Source: Pontibacter coccineus (GTDB lineage Bacteria; Bacteroidota; Bacteroidia; Cytophagales; Hymenobacteraceae). From it: 64,000 nucleotides of DNA. A program made the position numbers and the translations under genes. The stretch is from the NCBI RefSeq assembly GCF_030546575.1, contig NZ_JAUOTN010000001.1, forward strand, positions 186,001 to 250,000, read 5' to 3'. The notes beneath the pieces are model-generated. The model saw only the letters and a program-made list of their open reading frames with translations. It had not been told where the DNA came from and searched no databases. Every line of letters starts with the position of its first letter. Positions within the stretch are counted from its first letter, which is position 1. Shown piece by piece: positions 23,183-45,193 of this stretch.

Positions 23183-23275
23183 TTTTGCAGGGTAGTCGTT
23201 TTTTGGGGACTATCCCATTACTGTTCGAAACCTGTGAAAGTATTGTTTTCTGGCCTGGATACAGGAAGCGAAACT

Positions 23276-23300
23276 GTCCCCTTGAGGGGATTATACGGGT
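23276..23300. repeat. Degenerate core of the GTCCCCTTGAGGGGAC repeat family
   Basis: GTCCCCTTGAGGGG followed by ATTATACGGGT matches the start of the intact arms at 23791-23955 (GTCCCCTTGAGGGGAC, then TACAGGGGTGTAA), with decay after the hairpin. It lies 113 bases upstream of the DUF559 gene, so that gene is bracketed by members of the same family. Confidence 0.65.
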
Positions 23301-23412
23301 ATTCTCTTGAATCTATAAAGCCTTCAATACGCGCAATCTGGGGTCTCCGCAGAACTTAAAAACCCTGCCTTGTGTATGGGTTACAGAGCGTTGCATGTGG
23401 TAAATACCAGGC

Positions 23413-23781
23413 ATGAAAAAGAACACCATTATACCTTACAAGGAGTATCTTAAAGTCAAAGCAAGAGAACTGAGGAAAAACAGCACGCTTGCTGAGATTC
23501 TTTTATGGCAGGAAATAAAGGAGAGAAAACTACTGGGCTACCAATTTCACAGGCAAGTGCCTATGTTAGATTATATTGTTGATTTCTACTGTCATGAATT
23601 ACAACTAGCAATTGAGATAGATGGGGATAGCCATGATTATAGCTTTGATAATGATGCAAAGCGACAGTCGGAGCTGGAAAGGTATGGAGTAATGTTTTTA
23701 AGATTTGATGATATCGAAATCAAGAAAAACATCCAAAATATACTGCGAACATTAGAGCATTGGGTAACTGAGAACCAGTGA
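23413..23781 (+). CDS. DUF559 (Vsr-like endonuclease fold) protein
   Basis: This 122-residue protein matches the DUF559 family, which shares the PD-(D/E)xK/Vsr nuclease fold. The visible motif order is TLAEILLWQEIKERKLLGYQFHRQVP, then YIVDFYCHELQLAIEIDGDSH (Asp, Glu and Asp-Gly-Asp as candidate metal ligands) and MFLRFDDIEI. These proteins are single-domain nucleases of unknown biological role. It is lower in GC than its neighbours and sits between members of an inverted-repeat family (23276-23300 and 23791-23955), which suggests arrival with, or association to, that element. The ATG opens directly into the domain. Confidence 0.82.
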   Translation: MKKNTIIPYKEYLKVKARELRKNSTLAEILLWQEIKERKLLGYQFHRQVPMLDYIVDFYCHELQLAIEIDGDSHDYSFDNDAKRQSELERYGVMFLRFDDIEIKKNIQNILRTLEHWVTENQ

Positions 23782-23790
23782 TATTGCCTG

Positions 23791-23955
23791 TGCATGATTA
23801 CACCCCTGTGGTCCCCTCAAGGGGACAGTTCCGCTATTACTATTTCAAAATTTAGTACGCTTAGCATCGAAAGAATAAGGTTACTACCTGGTATAGTCTT
23901 AAAAACGGAAGAAAAGAGTGTCCCCTTGAGGGGACTACAGGGGTGTAATCATGCA
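23791..23955. repeat. Inverted-repeat element with 36-bp arms, adjacent to the DUF559 gene
   Basis: The left arm 23791-23826 and right arm 23920-23955 are reverse complements with one mismatch. Each contains ATGATTACACCCCTGT and the hairpin GTCCCC-TCAA-GGGGAC. The arms enclose 93 bases with no coding potential. The element begins 9 bases after the DUF559 stop and ends 9 bases before the hrpB stop. Related elements occur at 30179-30356 and 45050-45193. Confidence 0.9.
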
Positions 23956-23964
23956 CAAACATCA

Positions 23965-30178: not shown

Positions 30179-30356
30179 ATCCCCTTGAGGACAAGTGAGA
30201 CGCGAGTCGAAACTTGCGACCGTAGGTCATAGGGGTGTAAATTCGGCGCTAAGATGATAGTAGGCTAGTTTGCAATTTATCGCACCTGTAAACACAGCCC
30301 TCTGAGAGCTCCGCTCGCAAGTTTCGAACTCGCGTTCTCACTTGTCCTCAAGGGGA
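30179..30356. repeat. Inverted-repeat element (type B of the CCCCTTGAGG family)
   Basis: Arms of about 43 bp, beginning CCCCTTGAGGACAAGTGAGA (30181) and ending with its complement (to 30355), also contain a GCGAGT(C)GAAACTTGCGA motif. The left arm runs on into AGGGGTGTAA, the same inner word as in the element at 23791-23955. The interior has no coding potential. It fills most of the 375-bp gap between the AraC and esterase genes. Confidence 0.88.
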
Positions 30357-45049: not shown

Positions 45050-45193
45050 GTCCCCTTAAGGGGACCACAGGGGTGTAAAGCTACAAAGCGGCCGTCTTGT
45101 GTGCACCTATGCCGATAGATCCACAGGAGTAGACACCCCTATTGACCTTTGGTCGCAAGTTTCGACTCTCGTCTCACTTGTCCTCATGGGGAT
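45050..45193. repeat. Chimeric inverted-repeat element (type A left, type B right)
   Basis: The left end GTCCCCTTAAGGGGAC, then ACAGGGGTGTAAA, matches the element beside the DUF559 gene. The right end (ACACCCCTATTGACC... to CACTTGTCCTCATGGGGATA) matches the complement of the left arm at 30179. The arms therefore differ except at the outermost CCCC(T/A) and inner GGGGTGT words. It occupies part of the 550-bp gap 44901-45447, where I see no gene. Confidence 0.82.

Follow-up and report, generated by a model that had tools for sequence, protein, structure and literature searches.

Bacterial hairpin repeats of the REP/REPIN kind associate with RAYT transposases, which are HUH (Y1) enzymes. Rickettsia palindromic elements are not known to carry a gene. 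Another class, the potential intrastrand triplex repeats known as PIT, TM or BoxC (Holder et al. 2015, PMC4666352; Hoyne et al. 2000 as cited there), consists of a hairpin followed by a mirror third strand, found partly in inverted pairs and dispersed in many bacteria. PMC4666352 found neither a consensus among the genes flanking these repeats nor a connection with mobile elements, and no word of its main text begins with "DUF" or "nuclease." Its Discussion holds that a triplex of the E. coli motif was shown in vitro, with a stable triplex in vivo unsupported. The repeats we describe share this architecture, and E. coli ycjD, a DUF559 gene, adjoins one of the known kind; ours differ in that the stem varies by lineage, many have a hairpin in the linker, and the repeats bound a nuclease gene.

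The window, meaning the whole 64-kb stretch of DNA analyzed, is G000:C4:186001-250000 of a 4.66-Mb genome. Its relevant features, in window coordinates, are as follows.

23413..23781, + strand: DUF559 (PF04480) nuclease gene of the Vsr/EDxHD type, 122 aa (Pfam E 1.1e-30; AlphaFold model)
23267..23309, + strand: left arm of the DUF559 element, with hairpin 23276-23291 (one mismatch to GTCCCCTTGAGGGGAC) and a decayed third strand on the gene side
23793..23835, − strand: right arm of the DUF559 element, with the third strand toward the gene and hairpin 23811-23826 outside (PIT 23802-23825)
23919..23957, + strand: third PIT repeat, with hairpin 23920-23935 and third strand AGGGGTGT; 91 nt separate it from the right arm, to which it is inverted
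45050..45193, no strand: gene-free inverted pair, MITE-like, with a PIT at 45051-45074, an expanded right arm, and inner arms of 15 nt (80%)
30180..30356, no strand: more distant gene-free relative with expanded arms; outer arms 30180-30200 and 30336-30356 (21 nt, 100% complementary)

The sequence-only reading had called the gene a DUF559 nuclease, and it is one: the protein scores 106.1 bits against PF04480, whose cut-off is 20.6. The only defense annotation was a weak PADLOC match (mREase_II, E 5.8e-5). A degenerate hairpin core had been placed to the left of the gene, and it is present at 23276-23291. The gene had further been described as lying between that core and a 165-bp inverted pair with 36-bp arms. 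It does lie amid hairpin repeats, but its own ends are another inverted repeat, I2 (23267-23309 / 23793-23835, 79% complementary). The 165-bp pair, I1 (23789-23827 / 23919-23957), is real, with arms slightly longer than proposed (39 nt, 97%). We rejected it as a self-contained element and as the encloser of the gene because its left arm belongs to I2, as the right end of the element that holds the gene; its right arm is the third repeat. Two gene-free relatives had also been proposed. The one at 45050-45193 stands, but that at 30179-30356 is more distant and carries TCCCCTTGAGGACAAGTGAGA in place of the compact hairpin.

When up to three mismatches are allowed, GTCCCCTTGAGGGGAC has eight matches in the window (four places, both strands) against 0.52 expected, a number reached by none of 100 shuffled windows. 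The 12-nt tag ACAGGGGTGTAA beside it includes the mirror-image third strand. Our strict PIT detector, which requires a stem and a third strand of at least 7 each, finds no PIT in the 64-kb window. Relaxed to a 6-bp stem and a 6-nt third strand, it finds four, three of them at the DUF559 gene and the fourth at 45051-45074; between zero and two were found in each of ten shuffled windows. The right arm and the third repeat have a 6-bp stem and a 6-nt third strand at this setting and so satisfy the definition of a PIT as a purine hairpin arm with a mirror third strand and a stem of at least 6. The match to the left of the gene has its third strand 48 nt off and is better described as a hairpin whose tag has decayed. 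Plain-hairpin DNA folding of the three arms was unremarkable against shuffles (z −0.8 to −1.5), the program being unable to score a third strand.

We then considered the enzyme. An AlphaFold model of the window protein (pLDDT 91.8, pTM 0.84) has Neisseria NGO0050 (3hrl) as its best Foldseek match, followed by the catalytic domain of I-Bth0305I (3r3p; E 4.1e-5, TM 0.66/0.80); Vsr (1vsr) ranks lower, with E 0.027. A profile search of PDB sequences concurs (3hrl, E 1.6e-33; 3r3p, E 5.2e-6). Across 241 domains, E28 and W32 are invariant, and Q48, D57, E68, D70, H74, and D81 are kept in 238 to 240; D57, E68, D70, H74, and D81 are the putative active site. By its predicted structure, then, DUF559 is folded like the homing endonuclease I-Bth0305I, with both the fold and the conserved acidic and histidine residues in place. 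The median dN/dS is 0.0655 and the highest value 0.227 (24 close, partly overlapping pairs); the nuclease is conserved and under purifying selection. In two earlier papers, YcjD of E. coli is placed in the PD-(D/E)XK superfamily (PMC1189080) and a Caulobacter DUF559 protein is linked to the DNA damage response (PMC12907096).

An arm consists of a pyrimidine/purine hairpin and a tag that mirrors the purine strand. The rule holds across many loci: the tag 3′ of the hairpin mirrors the purine arm, with T permitted opposite A (for example, arm GGAGAGGGGG with GGGGGGTGAGG, and arm AAGGGAAGG with GGAAGGGTT). Related loci have stems and third strands of at least 7 by the detector. For a mirror test, the best hairpin to either side of every DUF559 gene was chosen without requiring a mirror, 267 sides in all. 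A hairpin's own mirror (at least 7.5 of 8) lay on its 3′ side in 108 cases, against 8/267 on the 5′ side and 7/267 for the unmirrored arm, and swapped arms scored below own arms (Wilcoxon p 1e-16). The linker in many Bacteroidota holds a second hairpin of variable sequence: the mean longest perfect stem in 96 distinct linkers of more than 12 nt is 6.4 bp, against 3.4 after shuffling. This figure is inflated, since some detector matches combine a hairpin with part of a neighboring repeat, either its hairpin or its third strand. As judged from these letters alone, the anatomy of the arms is that of the PIT/TM/BoxC repeats. Third strands continue to match their stems as the stems change, which suggests that a triplex, or at least mirror symmetry, matters in the cell, with an origin by slippage duplication not excluded. 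Opposite a stem A, the third strand has 45 A and 4 T at positions 2-3 from the hairpin base and 25 A and 88 T at loop-near positions 7-8; this polarity may reflect triplex geometry.

To relate gene and repeat, we assembled 172 loci: 3 from the genome of the window, the 30 best-scoring and a further 58 listed DUF559 genes from 120 genomes of its family, 80 named loci, and E. coli K-12. They encode 167 distinct proteins, and 159 have both 250-bp flanks. Windows of the same size from the same loci served as controls. The strict detector places a PIT within 250 bp of 147/159 DUF559 genes, compared with 95/4110 control windows. PITs stand inverted on both sides of 90 genes, an arrangement seen in 1/4110 controls; 53/159 genes have a PIT on one side only, and 4/159 have them on both sides without inversion. 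No PIT is detected near the remaining 12 of 159, among them the window's own gene, which is missed because its stems are 6 bp. The preference of DUF559 genes for the neighborhood of the repeat, which the sequence-only reading had proposed as a check, is thus borne out. That reading had also likened a Vsr-like nuclease with hairpins to REP elements and their transposase, and the organization supports it; cutting or moving has not been shown. As with REP/REPIN and RAYT, inverted hairpin pairs surround a single small nuclease gene. But the enclosed gene is DUF559, of the Vsr/EDxHD fold, and not an HUH Y1 transposase (HUH genes elsewhere were not searched), and REP has a short tag where the DUF559 arms have a mirror third strand. 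The likeness is organizational only, because the enclosed enzyme is DUF559.

The two flanks also match each other. Aligned in inverted orientation, they score at least 40 in 29/33 loci of the genome and family sets, and a score of 30 is reached by 39/72 named loci against 6/809 windows (8 of the 80 named loci were dropped for short flanks). In the named loci, repeat density is 2.5 per kb within 250 bp of the gene, about 0.2 or less beyond 500 bp, and at most 0.14 beyond 1.25 kb. Terminal inverted repeats, the mark of a transposon or MITE, are therefore a property of these elements. The third strand is on the outer side in 58 of the 90 inverted pairs and on the inner side in 32, which is odd for a transposon with fixed ends.

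The detector was designed after the flank alignments had been viewed, so the first locus set is not blind. Three later sets (L139-L198, L234-L271, and L332-L361) were collected once it was fixed; L324-L331 stand outside the analysis. Among the 30 best loci of 148 Bacteroidota genomes, 2 were cut off and dropped; a PIT adjoins 25 of the other 28, inverted on both sides in 16 (controls, 13/135 with any PIT and none inverted). Thirty loci from 98 genomes in the phylum to which a Pseudanabaena genome belongs (Cyanobacteria) gave 26 with a PIT and 21 inverted on both sides (controls, 8/152 and 1). Eight loci of a plasmid collection, from Azospirillum, Sphingomonas, Picosynechococcus, Synechocystis, Deinococcus, Sinorhizobium, Klebsiella, and Pseudanabaena, gave 7 and 4 (controls, 0/41 and 0). 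The detector finds no PIT at 3/28, 4/30, and 1/8 of these loci, respectively. Related genomes are not independent, no test fully corrects for shared ancestry, and control windows are few in short loci. The association of DUF559 with PITs is general and tight, and it crosses phyla.

We read the gene and its two inverted PIT arms as one small, homing-like mobile element, with a probability of roughly 0.7; recognition of the PIT, cutting, and repair are inferred. It is conceivable, if barely, that the hairpins are merely terminators or mRNA stabilizers around a short gene, as GC-rich hairpins near gene ends could suggest. However, an inverted pair occurs in only 1/4110 control windows, the hairpins are translated in frame inside larger genes (see below), and earlier work cited in PMC4666352 saw no promoter or terminator activity of PITs. 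Still less credible is a coincidence of habitat, in which permissive, variable spots collect DUF559 genes and PITs alike. Single spots that hold composite arrays of several types of PIT (L017 and L020) and several genomes with repeats and no DUF559 gene at one site, described below, would fit such a coincidence. It does not account for left and right arms that match each other and follow the protein, nor for a PIT density that drops about twelvefold within 750 bp of DUF559, with control windows of the same loci nearly empty.

By genome, too, the repeat and the gene keep company. DUF559 is present in 78/148 Bacteroidota genomes and the commonest hairpin (CCCCTCCT, a loop, AGGAGGGG) in 25. Of those 25, 23 carry DUF559, as do 55 of the 123 others (Fisher p 6.6e-6); counting strong DUF559 matches only, the figures are 23/25 and 40/123 (p 2.6e-8). 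Almost all copies of the hairpin, 304/313, sit in DUF559 genomes. The two genomes that have it without DUF559 are G130 (8 copies) and G243 (1 copy); two other genomes of G130's genus have 124 and 57 copies, both with DUF559. Conversely, 55 of the 78 DUF559 genomes lack the commonest hairpin, and these are left unexplained because other hairpin types were not counted. Independent distribution of gene and repeat, or repeat-rich genomes without the gene, had been named beforehand as what would refute the link; neither was found.

The arms also track the enzyme. Within the family set, distances between arms correlate with those between proteins (76 loci, r 0.47; 0/500 permutations), and in genomes with several DUF559 genes an arm is nearer to that of the closest protein in another genome than to that of its genome mate in 13 cases against 2, with 7 ties (22 loci, p 0.010). 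No correlation was seen in the named set (70 loci, r −0.03). Arms follow the protein more than the genome, as shown for one family. One locus (G247:C1:3558331-3558784) has two arms around a broken DUF559 gene, with two overlapping partial matches, one containing a stop; this element is decaying in place.

The genome of the window has three DUF559 genes by Pfam, all enclosed by inverted hairpin repeats. At the other two (L008 and L010), the arms are of different sequence: ATTCCCCTCCTCGGAGGGGTTAGGGGTGGGTT (32 nt, 100%) and a 36-nt pair at 83%. Their hairpin type, CCCCTCCTCGGAGGGG plus tag, has 5 exact-pattern copies in 4.66 Mb, 4 of which are the arms of L008 and L010. The window hairpin type plus tag has 17 copies by exact pattern, several of them gene-free inverted pairs of about 90 to 115 bp. 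Two further loci of this genome, L017 and L020 on contig C5, are composite, BIME-like arrays in which three different types of PIT share one orientation.

Such gene-free pairs raise the prospect that the PIT pair is mobile by way of an unidentified recombinase, with DUF559 as captured cargo; HUH transposases move REP-type repeats elsewhere. We think this improbable. DUF559 turns up as the cargo time and again, in Bacteroidota, Cyanobacteria, Proteobacteria, and Deinococcus, and repeat and gene co-occur by genome, although other recombinases were not searched for genome-wide. A homing-like element driven by the nuclease itself remains our preferred reading.

Homing elements leave occupied and empty alleles at one site. 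The window's element sits between hrpB and a symporter gene, and of 41 genomes of the genus we inspected 30 at this site. A DUF559 match is present in nine (partial in L220). The window-type hairpin is beside it in five (L199, L203, L208, L219, and L227; L203 has another type on the far side), and four have a different arm type (L204, L220, L222, and L224). The other genomes have repeats alone or nothing. L200 and L216 keep a single, somewhat degenerate repeat. The sequence to its left aligns with that to the left of the occupied sites, and the final repeat of L208, together with its right flank, aligns with the lone repeat and right flank of L200 and L216. In the window genome, the right junction lies about 80 bp further on, at a repeat remnant. 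The third repeat of the window (23919-23957) is on the hrpB side, where by this comparison gene-less relatives retain the lone repeat. By these alignments, where one genome has a lone repeat another has repeat-insert-repeat. Empty and occupied alleles of a homing site show this pattern, although a deletion between direct repeats would produce it as well. Other repeats occur downstream of hrpB as well. L218, L225, L226, and L228 have another inverted repeat family, AAGATCCCTCGGCTGCGCTCGGGATGAC (imperfect in L228), at the same intergenic site, and L202 has the palindrome GGACAGGTCGCGACCTGTCC twice.

Many DUF559 domains in long ORFs proved to be a DUF559-PIT unit read through in frame, with the arms translated into peptides such as SPLPLGEDLGEG. 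Twelve interrupted frames were checked against Pfam or NCBIfam; most host genes were otherwise named by eye. The host frames carrying a DUF559 unit are these.

L028 and L249: MetH, methionine synthase (Pfam/NCBIfam)
L236: leucyl-tRNA synthetase, leuS (Pfam/NCBIfam)
L120: isoleucyl-tRNA synthetase, ileS (Pfam/NCBIfam)
L340: PriA (NCBIfam)
L332, 334-2064, + strand: IspE with two DUF559 copies, one N-terminal and one internal, in a single frame
L348: HydE C-terminus (Pfam/NCBIfam)
L341: MpaA-like peptidase (below the family cut-off)
L241: HsdR (Pfam/NCBIfam)
L246: HsdM (Pfam/NCBIfam)
L133: MmeI (Pfam/NCBIfam)
L037: C-terminus of the PurL/PurQ amidotransferase (Pfam/NCBIfam)

In one genus, 3 of 16 genomes have a DUF559 unit in the metH linker, and the other 13 are uninterrupted, with 88 to 92% identity to the query. 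In the two clearest metH cases, the insert starts and ends with third strands; no target-site duplication could be read at the metH junctions. In a second genus, none of 61 genomes searched had metH interrupted at that point. In the 241-domain tree, the seven recognized metH inserts fall into four separate groups, and ten purL/purQ inserts also into four, two of these with support of 1.00 and 0.99. The metH clades are weakly supported (0.40 and 0.67). Tree positions thus suggest that the metH and purL/purQ units were inserted repeatedly, weakly so for metH. Four priA genes (L334, L336, L340, and L343; Cyanobacteria phylum) have a DUF559 unit just before the helicase motif GVTASGKT; only L340 was checked against NCBIfam, and the four inserts form one clade in the tree (support 0.97).

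These inserts resemble homing endonucleases of the I-Bth0305I type (EDxHD/Vsr) in fold, in their insertion into conserved genes, and in having empty and occupied alleles at one site, which both metH (3/16) and the hrpB site provide. The difference is that no intron or intein was found around DUF559: no intein domain is listed for 7 ORFs, no Rfam family matches in 9 loci, and the host frame runs on through the arms and the nuclease, so what would define a self-splicing intron or intein is absent. Like Rickettsia palindromic elements, the units are palindromic repeats inserting in frame within genes, but those are not known to carry a gene, and the DUF559 repeats bring a nuclease.

The alternative we take most seriously, while holding it to be unlikely, casts the enzyme as a guardian: PITs would spread otherwise, by replication slippage or an unknown transposase, and DUF559, resolving or repairing these fragile folded repeats, would be retained nearby. 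Vsr-type nucleases function in repair. TM loci of E. coli are unstable according to PMC4666352, and the damage-response tie of the Caulobacter protein (PMC12907096) points the same way. Yet a repair enzyme needs no matching arms on both sides, no arms that track its own sequence, and no insertion with arms inside metH, leuS, or priA.

We therefore return to the homing-like element and propose how it might work. The DUF559 nuclease would recognize PIT DNA, probably when single-stranded or extruded and folded, and would nick or cut there. The break would be repaired by copying from a PIT-flanked DUF559 locus, giving homing-like spread, and solitary PITs and gene-free inverted pairs would be targets or non-autonomous derivatives of the same enzyme. 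We know of no nuclease of the Vsr/EDxHD fold that joins DNA, and for this reason we favor cutting or nicking, with host recombination needed to finish the reaction. A wider proposal strikes us as evenly balanced between right and wrong: that a single ancient class of mobile element, found across phyla and with a Vsr/EDxHD nuclease as its sole enzyme, has the PIT/BoxC repeats as its ends, its targets, and its non-autonomous descendants. The folded hairpin and third strand would be the signal recognized, and cut and repair would carry the element both into PITs and into the linkers of essential proteins, in which it would remain unspliced and be translated. On sequence evidence, the DUF559 enzyme and its PIT ends appear to evolve together, the unit behaving as a mobile element would.

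To our knowledge, no one known kind of element combines the organization of REP/RAYT, the enzyme of a homing endonuclease, and in-frame insertion; because no single kind has all three, the DUF559-PIT unit is, as far as known, a new kind of element. The data point to DUF559 as the likely maker of a long-known, unexplained bacterial repeat and to an unrecognized kind of mobile DNA. If this is true, the element runs on an enzyme that is not of the HUH or the DDE type, selection has apparently maintained its DNA third strand, and conserved proteins can acquire a nuclease domain through it with no splicing involved. A role is also suggested for DUF559, seldom named in the literature searched. PIT repeats, known in hundreds of bacterial genomes (PMC4666352) but with neither a partner gene nor a mechanism for their origin in the literature searched, gain a candidate partner gene. 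No link of DUF559 or YcjD to them was found in the literature searched, which left most subscription papers outside, so that a prior report is possible.

With a dedicated nuclease, the origin of PITs becomes testable in E. coli K-12 by a single gene knockout. There, ycjD has a PIT on one side only. At least 80% of a fabI-ycjD-sapF query is present in 3330 of 5426 E. coli genomes. We considered ycjD as a clean empty-site case and rejected it: in the three strains inspected among those with low coverage (L229, L230, and L231), a TetR/RND efflux operon follows fabI and replaces the ycjD-sapF stretch of K-12.
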